Below, one piece after another: positions 31,019 to 59,876 of a stretch of 64,000 bases of DNA. Source of the DNA: Neisseriaceae bacterium TC5R-5 (GTDB taxonomy: Bacteria; Pseudomonadota; Gammaproteobacteria; Burkholderiales; Chromobacteriaceae). Below the pieces are notes generated by a model, which did not search any database, was not told the origin of the DNA, and saw only the letters and a list, made by a program, of their open reading frames with translations. The stretch spans positions 80,420 through 144,419 of the forward strand of contig JACCFC020000003.1 in the NCBI GenBank assembly GCA_020830965.2, in the 5' to 3' direction. How positions within the stretch are numbered: the stretch's first letter is position 1; the number at the start of each line of letters is the position of its first letter. The position numbers were made by a program, and so were the translations under genes.

Positions 31019-31342
31019 ATGGATAAAATGATGACTGAACAGACCCGCCCCGACCCCGACAAGGGTGAGCCGTCCTTAGCGCAAGCGAAGTCCCCAGCGC
31101 AACAACTGCTGCTATTAGATGAAGCCTTCAAAGCCCTTTTGCCTGACACAATGCTCGCTGAAGCGTGCCAAGTGATGCGTCTTCATAAGGAGGAGCTAGT
31201 AGTGTATGCCGATAATGACGCTATCGCTGGCCGACTCCGCGTAATTGCGCACGGCATCCTCTCTGCGCTGAGCAAACAGGGTTATGTTGCTAAGACGATA
31301 AGAATCAAAGTCAATTTGCGCACCGCCGCTAGAAAGCCGTAG
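31019..31342 (+). CDS. DciA-like (DUF721) protein, short copy
   Basis: This 107-residue protein contains the DciA/DUF721 core (L-L-L-L-D-E-A-F-K-A-L-L-P-D-T, then R-L-R-V-I-A-H-G-I-L and I-R-I-K-V-N-L). DciA loads the replicative helicase DnaB in most bacteria, and its gene is often near secA. It is a clear paralogue of the next gene but is shorter at the C-terminus. Which of the two, if either alone, is the helicase loader cannot be told from sequence. Confidence 0.7.
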   Translation: MDKMMTEQTRPDPDKGEPSLAQAKSPAQQLLLLDEAFKALLPDTMLAEACQVMRLHKEELVVYADNDAIAGRLRVIAHGILSALSKQGYVAKTIRIKVNLRTAARKP

Positions 31343-31390: not shown

Positions 31391-31822
31391 ATGTCTGAAC
31401 GTCATTTCTCCGATATCGCCAATAGTGATCACTTGCTCAAACAACTGAGTGCACAAGCACATCAGTTGCTGGCGCTGGACAAAGCTTTTCAAGCACTGTT
31501 GCCCGATACTTTGAACCACGCCTGCCAGGCCGTACGTATCCGCGAAGGTGAATTAGTCGTGTATGCCCACAACGGCATTGTGGCTGCGCGGCTGCGCATG
31601 ATGGCGCATGGCTTGCTCCCTAGCCTAGCTAGGCAGGGTTATATCGCCAGCAAAGTACGCATTAAAGTGGATTTACAACTGGCCACCAAAGCCCCCCCTC
31701 CCAAAAACCTGCATATCAGCACACAAGCTTTGGATGCGATGGAACAGGCCGCGCAAAGTATTAGCCAGCCGCTGGTAAGTGCGGCGCTGGCTAAGTTAAT
31801 TGCGCGGCAGCGCGGCGGGTAA
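31391..31822 (+). CDS. DciA-like (DUF721) protein, long copy
   Basis: This 143-residue DUF721 protein has the same core as its neighbour (L-D-K-A-F-Q-A-L-L-P-D-T, R-E-G-E-L-V-V-Y-A, A-A-R-L-R-M-M-A-H-G, R-I-K-V-D-L) plus a helical C-terminal extension ending A-L-A-K-L-I-A-R-Q-R-G-G. It starts 48 bases after the first copy in the same direction, so the pair is probably one transcript. It is the better DciA candidate because of its fuller length. Confidence 0.75.
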   Translation: MSERHFSDIANSDHLLKQLSAQAHQLLALDKAFQALLPDTLNHACQAVRIREGELVVYAHNGIVAARLRMMAHGLLPSLARQGYIASKVRIKVDLQLATKAPPPKNLHISTQALDAMEQAAQSISQPLVSAALAKLIARQRGG

Positions 31823-31834
31823 TACCGATGCCGT

Positions 31835-32143
31835 TTAATGGATAAGCGGCAAATCGGCCTTGATGTGCGCTATCCAGCTCTCACACTCACGAGCGAGCTC
31901 CGACAGCAAGCATTGCACCAGCACGAGCTGACATAGTGTTGCCTGATCGGTGAGCTGATGATGGGCGCACTTGGCCATTAAGGTCACCAGCGCAAATTGG
32001 CCATCAAGACATTCGGTATGCAAAGTACGCAAGCAGTCGCGGGCGTCGTCGCTATTCAGCGCCTAGCCCCGATGCTGAGCGGCAAAGCACTCCAGTACTG
32101 GTAATAAGGCAGAAAGCCGCGAAGGAGGATGGCTTGGGTTCAT
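31835..32143 (-). pseudogene. Small ORF behind the structured leader, in-frame TAG at codon 27
   Basis: From ATG 32143 (ribosome-binding site GGAG, 6 bases before) the frame reads M-N-P-S-H-P-P-S-R-L-S-A-L-L-P-V-L-E-C-F and stops at TAG 32065-32063. It then continues open in the same frame to 31835, for 103 codons in all. The downstream part is Cys- and Leu-rich (C-L-L-S-E-L-A-R-E-C-E-S-W). A CAG-to-TAG nonsense change explains this simply. No family was recognised. Its leader is shared with the gene at 55180-55512, but the proteins are not obviously similar. Confidence 0.55.
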
Positions 32144-32394
32144 GGTTAACTCCCTGGTAGTTGAAGCCAACCATCCCTGTCATCAAACAGGAATGGCAGG
32201 CACATGACAGGGTTGACGAACCGATACCAGGGAAACGGCAGGGCCGAAGCCCTCCCCACCATGGCCCGCCGTAATGGCAGCAATGGCATGTTCGACAGAC
32301 CGCATAGCACTAAGCGCTTGGCAGTCTGCCCCGATATCAGGTCGTCAAACCCGGTGCCAACAAGATGTCAGCACGGTGGCATTTTAACGGATTT
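32144..32394 (-). ncRNA. Structured leader RNA candidate, copy 1
   Basis: About 251 bases directly upstream of the small ORF. It aligns with 55513-55764 in blocks: the 5' word CGTTAAAATGCC, the block ACGGCGGGCCATGG, then TCAACCCTGTCATGTGCCTG, and the GGAGTTA-CCATG start region. A UUCG-capped hairpin (AGGGC-UUCG-GCCCU, 32253-32240) and a 10-bp hairpin (32196-32171) both keep pairing in copy 2 through compensatory changes. The words R-R-A-M-V-G and N-P-V that can be read in it recall Ash/Icd-like prophage loci (unverified memory). A cis-regulatory role is inferred from its position. Confidence 0.7.
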
Positions 32395-32461
32395 GTGGCG
32401 GAAGGGTGTGGGGGAATTAACGTGGATGTGATGAGGCGATAACGTCATCACATAATGTCGT

Positions 32462-32489
32462 GTAGAGACAAGGCATGCCTTGTCTCTAC
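32462..32489. repeat. 28-bp perfect palindrome (GTAGAGACAAGGCA type), copy 1
   Basis: GTAGAGACAAGGCA is followed directly by its exact complement TGCCTTGTCTCTAC. Further copies are at 55084-55111 (one mismatch) and 55799-55826 (perfect). In both leader loci one copy sits 35-70 bases beyond the 5' end of the structured leader. Palindromes of this type are dispersed in many genomes. Confidence 0.9.
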
Positions 32490-32537
32490 GGGTTACGAAC
32501 CTTGTCTCTACGGATTACGGGCCTTGTGTCTACGGCT
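32478..32537. repeat. 22-bp tandem repeat, three units
   Basis: Units beginning CCTTGTCTCTACGG start at 32478, 32500 and 32522, spaced exactly 22 bases. The third is degenerate (CCTTGTGTCTACGG) and runs over the stop codon of the gene ending at 32530. The first overlaps the palindrome, so the array probably grew from it. Confidence 0.8.
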
Positions 32538-55083: not shown

Positions 55084-55128
55084 GTAGAGACTAGGCATGC
55101 CTTGTCTCTACGAACGACAGGCAGCACC
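55084..55128. repeat. Left boundary repeat of the cassette (palindrome plus inverted-repeat arm)
   Basis: A one-mismatch copy of the GTAGAGAC palindrome (55084-55111) runs into CTACGAACGACAGGCAGCAC. The 25 bases 55104-55128 are the exact reverse complement of 55772-55796. Confidence 0.85.
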
Positions 55129-55179
55129 GCAGTCAAGCCACCAGCGAGCGTAAAACGGGAACGATTGCGGTTGTGGCAT

Positions 55180-55512
55180 TCATCGCGGCACCTCCTGCTG
55201 TGCCAGCGCATCGTGCAGGCTGCCGAGCAAACCTAACAGCCAGCCTTTTAAGCGCTGCTGCTCCAACGTCAGTTCGCCATCCAAACCTAAACGCAACAAC
55301 ACCGCCTGCTGACAACGGTACAGCGTGGCACTCACACTTTGCGGCTGGGTAGCCAGCGCAAATGCCAGCTCGCCTTCAAGATAACCCGCCAGATAAGCCT
55401 GAGTAGCCGCATCACGCTTGGCGTGCAAACGATAGTGTTCGACGATTTGCGGGGCCAGGGTGGCAAAGGGAGAAGTTTCGGGGTGAAACGGGATAAGCGG
55501 TGTAACAGACAT
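55180..55512 (-). CDS. Small protein behind the structured leader, unrecognised
   Basis: A 110-residue helical protein from ATG 55512, with AAGGAG 6 bases before. It reads F-A-T-L-A-P-Q-I-V-E-H-Y-R-L and G-Y-L-E-G-E-L-A-F-A-L-A, then a Leu-rich C-terminal half (Q-Q-R-L-K-G-W-L-L-G-L-L-G-S-L). No signal peptide or known domain was recognised. A 16-codon frame overlaps its stop (ATGA) and may be nothing. The gene sits inside a 743-base segment with inverted-repeat ends, and its leader is shared with the locus at 32 kb. The function is unknown. Confidence 0.55.
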   Translation of the reverse strand: MSVTPLIPFHPETSPFATLAPQIVEHYRLHAKRDAATQAYLAGYLEGELAFALATQPQSVSATLYRCQQAVLLRLGLDGELTLEQQRLKGWLLGLLGSLHDALAQQEVPR

Positions 55513-55764
55513 GGCTAACTCCTTCTTCTTGAGTTTAAGCCTGTATTCCCGCTCTCAAACGGGAATAGCAGGCACATGACAGGGTTGAGAGACCGGCAAG
55601 AAGGACCCGGCGGCCCGAAGGCCCCCCACCATGGCCCGCCGTAAGGCATAGCTATGGTGTTGGTAACGAACATAGAAACCGCATGGCTGCGGTGCTGTCC
55701 GCCTTCTTGCTCGGCTCTCATCCCGAATGCTCAATCTGAGCACGCCGGCATTTTAACGTATTTG
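55513..55764 (-). ncRNA. Structured leader RNA candidate, copy 2
   Basis: 252 bases between the small gene and the 5' word CGTTAAAATGCC (55751 region). Hairpins: GGCC-UUCG-GGCC (55623-55612) and TATTCCCG/CGGGAATA (55567-55544). Both align to hairpins in copy 1 with paired substitutions. The length matches copy 1 to one base. It ends at a shared GGAGTTAGCC-ATG start region, as expected of a leader that controls the gene behind it. Confidence 0.72.
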
Positions 55765-55771
55765 AGAAATG

Positions 55772-55826
55772 GGTGCTGCCTGTCGTTCGTAGAGACATGT
55801 AGAGACAAGGCATGCCTTGTCTCTAC
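55772..55826. repeat. Right boundary repeat of the cassette (inverted-repeat arm plus palindrome)
   Basis: GGTGCTGCCTGTCGTTCGTA and the next five bases (55772-55796) are the exact reverse complement of 55104-55128. A perfect copy of the 28-bp palindrome follows at 55799-55826. With the left boundary this frames the small gene and its leader. Confidence 0.85.
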
Positions 55827-55827
55827 A

Positions 55828-55897
55828 GGGTGGCGGGTGGCGGGTGGCGGGTGGCGGGTGGCGGGTGGCGGGTGGCGGGTGGCGGGTGGCGGGTGAT
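55828..55897. repeat. 7-bp tandem repeat GGGTGGC, nine full units
   Basis: Nine exact GGGTGGC units (55828-55890) and a degraded tenth (GGGTGAT). The array directly follows the cassette palindrome and ends 50 bases before the stop of the large STAND gene. Length variation between strains is likely. The remaining 49 bases hold no gene. Confidence 0.95.
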
Positions 55898-55946
55898 GGG
55901 GGACGACGCCTTGCCCCTACCAATATTGCCAGACCGTCATTCCCGC

Positions 55947-58900
55947 CTAAGCGGGAATTCCGTAGCTAGGTAGCACCGCTCCACTGCGCTGATAGAGCGC
56001 CTGGTATTCTTCTAGGTCTTGGGTAAAGCGTGCGGGGTAGGTTTGAGCCAGTTTTTGGAAAATATCCAGCGCTTGCTGAAGCCTTGCCAGCGCCTGGGGG
56101 ATGTCACCTTGTTGCCGCAATATTTGGGCATAGTTAGCGAGTGACTTCGCCCAATCAGACTCAAAGCGTTGTGGTGTGTTGTCGGCGAGTTCGGCGAAAA
56201 TATCTACAGCCTGCTTAGCGTATTGGGTGGCTTCATCAAGCCGGCCCTGTGCAGCCAAACGGTTAGCGTAATTATTGAGAGACCCTGCCCACTCAGATTT
56301 AAAACGTTCTGGTTTATTACGGGCTAGTTCCTCGTGAATTTCCACAGCCTGCTTAGCGTATTGGGTGGCTTCGTCAAGCTGGCCCTGTTCAGCCAAATGG
56401 ACAGCGTAATTATGAAGAGATGTAGCCCAATCAGGCTTGAAACGTTCGGGTTGCTTACAAGCTAGCTCCTTGCGAATCTCTAGGGCTTGCTTAGCGTATT
56501 TAGTGGCCTCAGCAAACTGGCGCTGTTCGGCCAAACGTTTAGCGTAATTATTGAGGAACATCGCCCAGTCAGGTTGAAAGAGTTCGGAATTCTTAGTGAC
56601 CAGTTTTGTGTAAATCTTCAGAGTCTGCCTATCGTATTTGACCGCCTCATCAAGCTGACCTTGGTCAGCCAAGCTAGCAGCGTAGTTATTGAGAGACCTA
56701 GCCAAGTCAGCTTTAAAACTTTCGGGGTTGTTAGCGGCGAGTTCTACGTAAATCTCCACAGCCTGCTTATCGTATTTGAGCGCTTCATCAAACTGACCCT
56801 GTTCAACCAAACGAGCAGCGTAATTGTGGAGAGACCCTGCCCACTCAGCTTTAAAACTTTCGGGGTTGTTAGCGGCGAGTTCTGCGTAAATGTCCACAGC
56901 CTGCTTAGCGATGGGTAAAGCTGCCGAGAAGCTACCTTGGGCAACCAAACAGATGGAGAGATGGTTAAGTGCGACGGCGAAGGCTTCAGAGTCAATCTTG
57001 GTTTTAGCAGCCAGTTGTTCGGTTCGGCTTTGCCAGAGTAAAACCGACAAATCAACCAAGGGGAGAATTTCGTTTAGTCGATGTTTTTCGAGTATTCCGA
57101 ACACCTGTGCCTGTTGTGCCTGTGTTAACTGTCCAAATGCTTGCTCCACCAAGCCCGGCAAGGGGCTAGGGGTGGCGATGATGACTGTGACTAAATCATC
57201 AGCACAGGCGGCAAAGTGGCGGCTAAGCGCGGGCAAGAGCTGTTCACCACGCGCAGGCCATTGCCGCAGCATCCGCGCCAGTACGGTCAGGCTGTTGCGG
57301 CGCAAGCTTGGCTGGCCGCTGCCGAGCACGGCATCCAGTAAGGATGCGCCAGCGTCGCTAAGCAGGGTGTGCGCGACTAAGGCTTCGCCGAGTAGGTCTG
57401 GGCGCAGGGCGGGCAAGCCCTGGCTGGTTTGCGGGTAGAGCGGGGTTAGTTGCCTGAATAAGCGTTGGAGGGTGCGCTTATCGCTATCGCTGGCTTGTTG
57501 CCAGATGTCTTGATAATTGCGTGATGAAGGCAGGCCATCCGCCAGCGTCGCCAGCGTCAGCAGTAGCTCGGCGTGCTCGGGATGTTCGGGATGTTCGGCT
57601 TCGCCCAAGGCGCGCTGCCAGTAGCGTTGTTCATAGCCGAGCAGTGTGCGGGTAAGGCTTTGCGCCGAGCCGGCTTGTTCGCCCTGTAAGACGAGCAGCG
57701 CGGCCATTTGCAGGTAAAGCGGCTGGGCGAAGTGGGCTTCGTGCAACTGCGGCTGGCTGGGGTTGGGGGGGAGGCCGAGCTTGGCGGCCAGCGCCTGCAT
57801 CGCTCGCTGGTAGGCGGCGACGCGGCTGTCTAGGCTGTCGTGCAAGCTGGGCAGCATAAACGGGCCGCTGGTGGCGAGGCCATCCAGTAAATCGGTACAG
57901 GCTGAGTCTATATGGGGCAGGCGTTGCCACCATTCGCCGCTATCGCGTGCCAGCAGCAGCAGGCGTACCGACTGGGCTGGCGGGCGGGCGCGTAGCGCTT
58001 TGAGGAGGTGGAGGAAAGCGGTTTGCCGGGTTTCGGCGTAGTCCAGCACTAGGCAGCTAGCTTGGGTGCTGTTGGCCAAGTAGCCTGCGACGTCGCTGAC
58101 GGGGGTTGTATGGGGCAGCAGACCAGCCTGCCAGCCGTCTTGCTGCAAGCGGCGGCACAGTTCTAGCGCCAGCCGGGTTTTGCCGCTGCCACCGCTGCCG
58201 GTGAGTAGGCGCACGGTCAGCGGGTAGGTGGAGTCGTGCACCCAGTCCCATTGTTGTTGCAAAAAGGGTTCGCGGGCGGGGTCGAAGGGAATGGCGGCTT
58301 CTTCGGCGCGTAGTAGTCCGTTGGGACTTAGGCCGCTATTGGGCTGCCAGCGTGGTTGTGGCAGTTGTAGTAGTGAAGGGGCTTGGGGGGTGATTGTGGG
58401 TGCCGGGGTGTGTACTGCAATGGGGGTGTTTTGTGCCGGTGCAGGTGTAGACCAGCCTAGTATCTCGGCAAACTGGTCGGCGCAGTGTTTCCAGCTATAG
58501 CGTTGCAGCAGGGTGTTGCGTAGTTGACTGGCTTTGTTGCGGGCGTCTGGTGGGTTTTTGGCGATTTGAATCAGGGCATCGGCGACGAGTTGGCAGTCTT
58601 TGTCCTGAAAAAACGGCTCATCCACGCTACCGGCGATATCCAATGGCGTAATTTGATGTTTGAGGTTTTCATCTTGCAGTAAGCGGTAGACCCCGCTTGC
58701 CTGGCTGAGCAGCAGAGGCACCCCGGCGGCAATGGCATCCCAGGCGACCAGGCCAAAGCCTTCGTGCCAGGAGGGCATCAGCGCGACGCTGGCGCGGCTT
58801 AAGTCTGTAAACAGTTTTTGTCTGTCCGTGGTGAAGGGCAGTGCTTGCAGATTGACCACGCGCCCGGCGTACTGCTGCGCAAAGCTTTTTAGGCCTTGTT

Positions 58901-59699
58901 CGGCGTTACTGTGTTCGGCAGTTTGGCTGTGTTCCATGTCCACACCACGCAGCGTGAGCGTCGGGCCTTGGCTGCCTTGCAGGCAATCGGGTAGGCCAGA
59001 ATCGTTATCGGCTCGCTTAATGGCGCTGGCAAAGCCCGCTACGCCCAGATGGGCTTGTTTGATTTTTTGCTCGCTCAGGCGGCCACTGATAAAACCTTTA
59101 AAAGTCTTTGGGGTTGGTTTTTCTGTAATGTCGGCTAGGCCGGGTATCAACATCTCAATGGTATGGTCAGGCAGCATATCGGCCAGCGCATCACGCAGCA
59201 GGGGGCCGATGGCTAACACGATGTCGGCTTGTTGAAATAGCGCTTCCTGTTGTTCGGCCTTGGTCGTGGCGCTGTGGCTGTTTTCGGCGAAAGCTTCGTA
59301 ATGCTGATAGCTCATATGGTGGATGAGGGCGCTTTTGCCGCCGTGTGTCTGTGCTGCCGCCAGCGCTATCGCTCCGGTGATGCGGTCATGGCCTAGCCAG
59401 ACGGTGTGCTCAGGCGGTAAAGGCGGCTTTGCTAGTTTTTCGTTCAGCTTGTGCCAGACCAGGGTTTCCAGCGTTGCTGGTAAGCCGTCTGTTGTGGGCG
59501 AACCGAGTGCAATCAGCGTAACTTGCTGCTCGGCTGCGGCGGTTTGTTGTTCCGGGCTGGCGTCTGGCACTACGCAGTAGACACGGGTGTGTGGCGCGGG
59601 GTAGGCGGTGGCAAGGGCGAGTAGCAGGTCGTGGTTAAAGCTGTTGATGCCGCCAAATTGCGGCCCCCAGCCGGTGGCGAAGGCGATGAGTGTGTGCAT
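55947..59699 (-). CDS. Glycosyltransferase-STAND NTPase-TPR fusion protein
   Basis: I chose ATG 59699 (M-H-T-L-I-A-F-A-T-G-W-G-P-Q-F-G-G-I-N), giving 1250 residues. Residues 1-420 are a GT-B (GT4-like) glycosyltransferase, whose usual E-x7-E reads E-G-F-G-L-V-A-W-D, Asp replacing the second Glu. After a Pro-rich linker (about 425-470), residues 480-900 are a STAND-type P-loop NTPase (Walker A G-S-G-G-S-G-K-T, 501-508; Walker B C-L-V-L-D-Y-A-E near 550). Residues about 910-1245 are some seven TPRs with a 46-residue period. STAND-TPR proteins are known as conflict/defence switches, in which the N-terminal domain acts as effector. A glycosyltransferase there is unusual. The role is inference. 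Confidence 0.85.
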   Translation of the reverse strand: MHTLIAFATGWGPQFGGINSFNHDLLLALATAYPAPHTRVYCVVPDASPEQQTAAAEQQVTLIALGSPTTDGLPATLETLVWHKLNEKLAKPPLPPEHTVWLGHDRITGAIALAAAQTHGGKSALIHHMSYQHYEAFAENSHSATTKAEQQEALFQQADIVLAIGPLLRDALADMLPDHTIEMLIPGLADITEKPTPKTFKGFISGRLSEQKIKQAHLGVAGFASAIKRADNDSGLPDCLQGSQGPTLTLRGVDMEHSQTAEHSNAEQGLKSFAQQYAGRVVNLQALPFTTDRQKLFTDLSRASVALMPSWHEGFGLVAWDAIAAGVPLLLSQASGVYRLLQDENLKHQITPLDIAGSVDEPFFQDKDCQLVADALIQIAKNPPDARNKASQLRNTLLQRYSWKHCADQFAEILGWSTPAPAQNTPIAVHTPAPTITPQAPSLLQLPQPRWQPNSGLSPNGLLRAEEAAIPFDPAREPFLQQQWDWVHDSTYPLTVRLLTGSGGSGKTRLALELCRRLQQDGWQAGLLPHTTPVSDVAGYLANSTQASCLVLDYAETRQTAFLHLLKALRARPPAQSVRLLLLARDSGEWWQRLPHIDSACTDLLDGLATSGPFMLPSLHDSLDSRVAAYQRAMQALAAKLGLPPNPSQPQLHEAHFAQPLYLQMAALLVLQGEQAGSAQSLTRTLLGYEQRYWQRALGEAEHPEHPEHAELLLTLATLADGLPSSRNYQDIWQQASDSDKRTLQRLFRQLTPLYPQTSQGLPALRPDLLGEALVAHTLLSDAGASLLDAVLGSGQPSLRRNSLTVLARMLRQWPARGEQLLPALSRHFAACADDLVTVIIATPSPLPGLVEQAFGQLTQAQQAQVFGILEKHRLNEILPLVDLSVLLWQSRTEQLAAKTKIDSEAFAVALNHLSICLVAQGSFSAALPIAKQAVDIYAELAANNPESFKAEWAGSLHNYAARLVEQGQFDEALKYDKQAVEIYVELAANNPESFKADLARSLNNYAASLADQGQLDEAVKYDRQTLKIYTKLVTKNSELFQPDWAMFLNNYAKRLAEQRQFAEATKYAKQALEIRKELACKQPERFKPDWATSLHNYAVHLAEQGQLDEATQYAKQAVEIHEELARNKPERFKSEWAGSLNNYANRLAAQGRLDEATQYAKQAVDIFAELADNTPQRFESDWAKSLANYAQILRQQGDIPQALARLQQALDIFQKLAQTYPARFTQDLEEYQALYQRSGAVLPSYGIPA

Positions 59700-59876
59700 G
59701 CTGTGTGTGGTGAGGGGTGGCTGATGGCGGTGGTGGCAATCATGCAGATGGGATGATAAAGCAGATTGGCGGTATGGGGCAGATTTAGTGTGGCTTGCGC
59801 TAGGCGAGTGGCCTCGCTTTTGAATGTGGCTTTGGCTCTTATGGCCTGCCAAGCTAAGCCTTGGCCGGCGATGTTT

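Follow-up and report, generated by a model that had tools for sequence, protein, structure and literature searches.

Two leader RNAs of a Neisseriaceae bacterium belong to a large, re-coded chromosomal set of C4 antisense RNAs

In phages P1 and P7, C4 RNA is described as a product of RNase P cleavage of a longer transcript, its b' segment partly covering a ribosome-binding site (RBS) and its a' segment adding specificity (PMC5320573). In P1, expression of ant is reported to be repressed by C4 (PMC8546580, PMC8198154). An icd/ant-type operon is a feature of P1 and not of the RNA family, RF01695, which was listed together with the c4-a1b1 motif in 2010 (PMC2864571). Related arrangements are described for IsrK (Gifsy-1) and for SeqA/CI/SeqC of phage P4, where a 5' RNA is complementary to a segment located further downstream in the same transcript (PMC4825925).

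The window, that is, the whole stretch of 64,000 nucleotides analyzed here from Neisseriaceae bacterium TC5R-5, contains two matching leaders of 251 and 252 nt (32394-32144 and 55764-55513), which read into GGGAGTTAACC-ATG and AAGGAGTTAGCC-ATG, respectively. Lengths and ends agree with the original prediction, whose description was corrected with regard to strand, both leaders being on the minus strand. It had presented them as a new structured RNA occurring twice. Rfam searches of the whole window (cut-off 45) showed copy 1 to be a C4 antisense RNA (RF01695, 32276-32189, 56.0 bits, E 4.2e-8), and copy 2 matched the same family 0.6 bit under the cut-off (55646-55561, 44.4 bits, E 3.2e-5), each copy aligning to model positions 1-87 of 87. 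A covariance model made from the 14 C4 loci of the genome gave 95.4 bits for copy 1 and 87.2 bits for copy 2, as expected by construction. With the score of copy 2 being borderline, the C4 identity of the leaders is, taken together, regarded as firm. A known RNA family, the C4 of P1/P7 immunity, had thus been correctly spotted without being recognized as such, the mention of icd/Ash motifs pointing to the right family; its members are new, and the set, with 14 matches in this genome, is unusually large and re-coded. What was supposed to be a new RNA becomes a testable case of a known antisense switch multiplied with differing codes. The upstream half of copy 1 gave a weak match to c4-a1b1 (RF03163, 18.9 bits vs a cut-off of 46.7), none being listed for copy 2 up to E 5, and no isrK match (RF01394, cut-off 50) was listed in the window.

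From 5' to 3' on the minus strand, each leader consists of a TTAAAAT box, a hairpin, a1/b1, C4, and a2/b2 ending in the RBS, followed by the start codon. The box is common to several other loci of the genome, and a scan found no sigma-70-type promoter in either copy. The parts, with the basis of each assignment, are the following.

32142..32394, minus strand: copy 1, whole putative C4-operon leader (hairpin near the 5' end, a1/b1, C4, a2/b2, RBS); Rfam and fold
32329..32349, minus strand: copy 1, a1 (32349-32342) and b1 (32338-32329), upstream of C4; duplex of -32.5 kcal/mol
32189..32276, minus strand: copy 1, C4 core, RF01695
32212..32235, minus strand: copy 1, antisense segments, b' loop (32235-32223) and a' junction (32220-32212); Rfam alignment and pairing
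32187-32180, minus strand: copy 1, a2; pairing test
32151..32159, minus strand: copy 1, b2, RBS segment TACCAGGGA, 9-nt exact complement of b'; pairing test
31835..32143, minus strand: copy 1, downstream gene of family B with an in-frame TAG at 32065-32063 (codon 27); sequence
55511..55764, minus strand: copy 2, whole putative C4-operon leader; Rfam and fold
55702..55720, minus strand: copy 2, a1 (55720-55715) and b1 GCAAGAAGG (55710-55702), b1 being a 9-nt exact complement of b'; duplex of -31.4 kcal/mol
55678..55693, minus strand: copy 2, terminator-like hairpin between a1/b1 and C4; consensus match only
55561..55646, minus strand: copy 2, C4 core, RF01695
55584..55605, minus strand: copy 2, antisense segments b' (55605-55595) and a' (55592-55584); pairing test
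55559-55552, minus strand: copy 2, a2; pairing test
55520..55527, minus strand: copy 2, b2, RBS segment AAGAAGGA, 8-nt exact complement of b'; pairing test
55180..55512, minus strand: copy 2, downstream gene of family A, 110 aa, intact; sequence and homologues
55133..55183, minus strand: truncated family-B start, 16 codons and a stop, overlapping the end of the copy 2 family-A gene; reading of the sequence

As in P1/P7, the match extends over the full length of the model, b' complements the RBS of the first downstream gene and a second target lies upstream. Unlike P1/P7, there are many chromosomal copies with different codes, and in this genome the genes behind them are small ones of three families (A, B and C) instead of icd-ant. 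It is very probable that each copy heads a C4-type antisense operon in which C4 silences the small gene through a2/b2 and the RBS, with a1/b1 as an upstream pairing partner. A single transcript from a presumed promoter would carry, in this order, the a1/b1 target, the C4 RNA and the a2/b2 target, b2 being the RBS of the first small gene. By analogy with P1/P7, RNase P would release C4 as an RNA of about 77 nt, cleaving where the P1 stem begins with GG; a GG-containing start of this stem is present in the sequence. Pairing of a' and b' with a2/b2 would then hide the RBS and keep the small gene silent, so that repression of the gene behind C4 is likely. The role of a1/b1 is hypothetical: by pairing with the same parts of C4 it could sequester the RNA or, alternatively, it may affect early termination or translation, as in phage P4 and IsrK. 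In copy 1, b1 and b' form 10 consecutive pairs, two of them G-U, with an exact Watson-Crick run of 4 nt.

The correspondence between b' and its targets was assessed by permutation, a procedure that takes loci as independent, some of which are related. Across the 14 loci of the genome, b' matched the upstream target of its own leader over a mean exact run of 7.64 nt, compared with 4.62 nt for other leaders, and its own RBS over 6.64 versus 4.28 nt; in neither case was any of 5000 permutations as good. By this measure the own leader was best or tied in 11 of 14 rows for the upstream target and in 9 of 14 for the RBS. Duplex energies of the b'-a' stretch averaged -28.6 (own) versus -18.6 kcal/mol (other) upstream and -20.5 versus -16.6 kcal/mol at the RBS (0/5000 permutations each), the own partner being best in 11/14 and 7/14 rows. 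When eight tests were run, seven gave 0/20000 permutations and the a' run upstream gave 17/20000; a' by itself discriminates less among loci. Family C, with its three loci (L012-L014), is an exception: b' fits b1, but its RBS match is just 3 nt at each locus. The relatives' loci were drawn from 123 gathered C4 elements (more exist), with coordinates from listed matches. The automatic parser of a' and b' left 5 of the 123 unparsed and misread others; 5 were set by hand and 6 dropped (four unparsed, two misread), leaving 117 elements in the pairing tests, 100 of them with an assigned RBS. For relatives, distinct b' sequences only were used (15 + 40 of 86 with an RBS), and start codons were picked automatically, some of them probably wrongly. 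The 40 distinct codes outside the 15 of family D (see below) gave 7.33 versus 4.60 nt upstream and 6.50 versus 3.92 nt at the RBS (0/5000 each), the own partner being best or tied in 27 and 23 of them, respectively. Since loci carry different b'/b1/b2 codes, each should mainly control itself, and the C4 loci may be a naturally occurring collection of insulated RNA regulators.

The C4-operon reading is thus supported by the RF01695 matches, by the pairing of each C4 with its own targets over those of other loci, by the P2 stems drawn while pair types vary (see below), by below-threshold c4-a1b1 and isrK matches at a1/b1 and by the Bro-N proteins found in relatives (see below). It is weakened by the scores under the cut-off of copy 2 and of 5 of the 14 genome matches, the degenerate b1 of copy 1, rows in which the own partner is not the best, the unmatched RBS of family C, the weak discrimination by a', a scan negative for sigma-70-type promoters, downstream genes of the window copies that are not antirepressors, the restriction of RNAalifold to P1 and predicted folds that favor a1/b1:C4.

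The last of these points bears on the less likely alternative that C4 acts mainly on its own leader, in the manner of P4 CI or IsrK, so that b'-b1 pairing decides termination or folding and RBS occlusion is secondary. In the predicted whole-leader folds of both copies the a1/b1:C4 duplex is favored over a free C4 fold, and the terminator-like hairpin of copy 2 is in the right place. Against this, a scan of the leader reported no such hairpin in copy 1, and the RBS is matched exactly over 8-9 nt in both window copies, which termination alone would not need. IsrK is resembled at the a1/b1 part, where isrK covariance matches occur in this genome and in relatives, all of them under the cut-off of 50 bits (best 36.0 at L011, followed by 33.9 at L003). 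Besides the folds and the copy 2 hairpin, action on the leader is supported by family D, represented by 15 distinct leaders of the same genus, in which b' matches b1 over 9.20 nt (own) versus 4.52 nt (other; 0/5000 permutations) and hardly the RBS (4.53 versus 4.29 nt); the three family-C loci behave alike. These leaders were picked for one constant RBS sequence, its constancy being thus due to selection. Even so, the RBS match of one of them (L076) is 8 nt long, and just 139 of 5000 permutations equalled the slight advantage of the own RBS in this family. Given that both targets are matched in the other relatives and b1 but hardly the RBS in family D, C4 may work in two ways, either by occluding the RBS or by acting on the upstream leader only. 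Family-D loci (L108, L109, L117, L118, L122 and others, in G001, G002, G005, G013 and G018) have paralogous proteins of ~145 aa behind C4, with b'/b1 re-coded, up to 12 exact pairs, and the RBS sequence unchanged.

It is rather unlikely that these C4s act mainly in trans, giving immunity against incoming related phages or controlling unlinked genes, as proposed for the Group 1 sRNAs of Acinetobacter. The comparison is a close one, as Group 1 also represents C4-like RNAs multiplied in one genome with variable specificity segments, A. baumannii AB5075 being reported to have 21 of them with a variable a' segment (PMC5320573), and in the present genome C4 is kept in front of some broken genes (the copy 1 gene with its TAG, and the gene at L008, which is in two pieces). 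The codes nevertheless fit their own leaders, favoring control in cis: here, a target can be recognized in the leader of most C4s, which are also followed by a gene. In A. baumannii, expression and processing have been demonstrated; for the present C4s they are predicted.

Still less probably, both stretches are inert relics, left either by old prophages or by the duplication of a single operon. In favor of this, C4 is an RNA known from phages, the copy 1 gene carries a TAG, and at two family-A loci of the genome, G000:C94:11659 (A with TAG; L143) and G000:C61:227816 (A intact; L146), C4 is wholly or mostly lost, the leader start and the a1 segment being similar. Drift, however, would destroy the complementarity that codes differing by locus still show to their own targets, and none of the 10 neighboring ORFs scanned, among which the long ORF 55947-59852 was not included, is a phage gene.

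That a conserved peptide or ordinary coding gene underlies the similarity is virtually excluded: the leader does contain possible short ORFs (such as 55654-55896 on the opposite strand), yet pair-preserving changes, a covariance match over the full C4 length and antisense-target complementarity rule it out. The original view that RNA structure, not a peptide, is kept is borne out. Between copies 1 and 2, the UUCG hairpin switches its second pair, counted from the loop, from G-C to C-G; sequences and folds likewise show, in the hairpin before the start codon, the predicted changes of C-G to U-A and of U-A to C-G, together with one of U-G to U-A. These changes stand as covariation; the decisive covariation, that between antisense and target, had been overlooked. 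Folding of the leaders was far more stable than that of 200 dinucleotide shuffles of each (z -6.5 for copy 1 and -7.1 for copy 2; 0/200 as good). RNAalifold run on the 14-row alignment returned 17 pairs, all of P1, the alignment being poor around the UUCG loop, and P2 was counted separately for this reason. Picking the best possible stem, a procedure biased toward finding one, gave a P2 of at least 4 pairs, with varying pair types, in every one of the 115 distinct C4s; many of the loops found were not UUCG.

The genes behind C4 were compared. The downstream genes had been called unrelated. With family B behind copy 1 and family A behind copy 2 they are not simply so: the copy 2 A gene has a truncated B start after it, and the two families are neighbors behind C4 at L001, L004 and L011. 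Family A has 7 matches in the genome, one with a TAG, family B has 12, four of them with an internal stop and 2 more short fragments, and family C has 3 loci. Among 19 genomes of the genus, family A occurs in 7, its own included (in one only at E 7e-4), and family B only in its own. Profile searches of Pfam, NCBIfam and PHROGs with representatives of A, B and C (4 proteins) yielded no match over the cut-off. One A protein had no tblastn match in phages or plasmids, and a scan of genome contigs gave one weak match (L124, 41% identity, query residues 2-47). The predicted structure of family A reached a pLDDT of 69.4 and that of family B, which is helical, 82.3; the B model had 0 structural matches at E <= 0.001 in PDB or BFVD. 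Assignment of family B to Avd was rejected (E 0.0013, 19.1 vs 80 bits). Family C is a remote relative of DUF1484 (E 0.01 and 0.0014, below cut-off). No antirepressor gene lies directly behind either window copy. Bro-N is the antirepressor type associated with such operons, and 2 of 8 C4-preceded proteins scanned in relatives are Bro-N proteins.

The distribution of C4 was surveyed in the window genome (3.53 Mb in 148 contigs), where 9 of the 14 matches are over the cut-off and 5 below, and in its relatives. C4 was present in 26 of 41 genomes examined and in 48 of 61 genomes of the taxonomic family, its own included in both counts. Within the genus, 37, 29, 35 and 39 matches were found in G002, G005, G013 and G018, respectively, 13 in G001, 13-14 in the window genome (G000) and 1-6 in each of 13 other genomes. 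At L089 (G013:C23:340224-340753), L107, L112 and L069, two or three matches lie within ~600 bases.

In several genomes of the genus, the gene immediately behind C4 encodes a DUF1484 protein of 138 aa. The product of vioS, a violacein/quorum-sensing repressor of Chromobacterium, is likewise described as 138 aa long with DUF1484 at 32-138 (PMC5339254). All six published vioS primers match one C4-led locus, G007:C34 (L158, L160), without mismatch. Here vioSBF and vioSER span 195 bases (published: 196) and C4 begins 86 bases past vioSER, followed by the gene, so that the published vioS promoter fusion ends before C4. At the same locus of G006, vioSER and KNvioSKF are exact, VioSBFw and KNvioSBR have one mismatch each, and vioSBF and VioSHR are unmatched, with 6 and 5 mismatches, respectively. 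A single code, whose RBS match is 9 nt long (ATCCAGGAG), is common to the six loci L159-L164. Rfam confirmed C4 in 14 of 14 DUF1484 loci fetched for a nearby C4, and found none in six further DUF1484 regions; L147, L150, L153 and L154 have no C4 in the stretch before the gene. Hence, vioS-like paralogues without C4 exist. The 14 C4-DUF1484 loci have 4 distinct codes only and make a weak pairing test, with 432/5000 and 210/5000 permutations as good. From the vioS loci, the genus is presumed to be Chromobacterium. The window genome itself gave no DUF1484 match at E <= 0.001; family C is its remote link to this group, and the window copies differ from vioS loci in preceding families A and B.

That C4 precedes vioS is a sequence observation; control of vioS by C4 is put forward as a hypothesis, which offers a concrete candidate for control of that repressor. 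A search of one literature collection found no paper tying C4 antisense RNA to vioS, violacein or Chromobacterium, and the words antisense, leader and untranslated are absent from the main text of PMC7240160 and PMC11019928. Further investigation of vioS expression and regulation was called for in 2017 (PMC5339254), and repression of vioS by VitR, at the promoter, was demonstrated afterwards (PMC11019928); control through a C4 leader would come on top of this, after the promoter step. Levels of vioS mRNA are reported to drop under tetracycline (PMC7240160), which, speculatively, a translation-coupled C4 leader could explain. On balance, we lean to the view that this genus has adopted the C4 switch of phages as a permanent regulatory cassette of the chromosome, present in 13-39 copies in six genomes and re-coded at b'/b1 (often also at the RBS) against cross-talk of paralogous operons, with vioS as a client, so that a phage-type antisense RNA would gate quorum-sensing output (violacein, proteases) from outside the published promoter fusion. 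The exact match of all six vioS primers to a C4-led locus adds to the probability of this view.

The surroundings of the window copies also bear on the proposal that the leaders are cis-regulators of mobile small genes. Control of the gene behind is probable; mobility is unsupported, the 10 neighboring ORFs scanned around both copies being ordinary chromosomal genes and families A and B having been found in 7 and 1, respectively, of the 19 genomes of the genus. Two neighboring ORFs, 31019-31342 and 31391-31822, each match DciA. Repeats related to GTAGAGACAAGGCATGCCTTGTCTCTAC, some of them complete palindromes, lie beside both copies (32460-32490, 55085-55112 and 55795-55828) and near L002 and L012, and have the look of a dispersed repeat family. 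A tandem GGGTGGC repeat, immediately upstream of copy 2, was seen by eye at 55835-55900.
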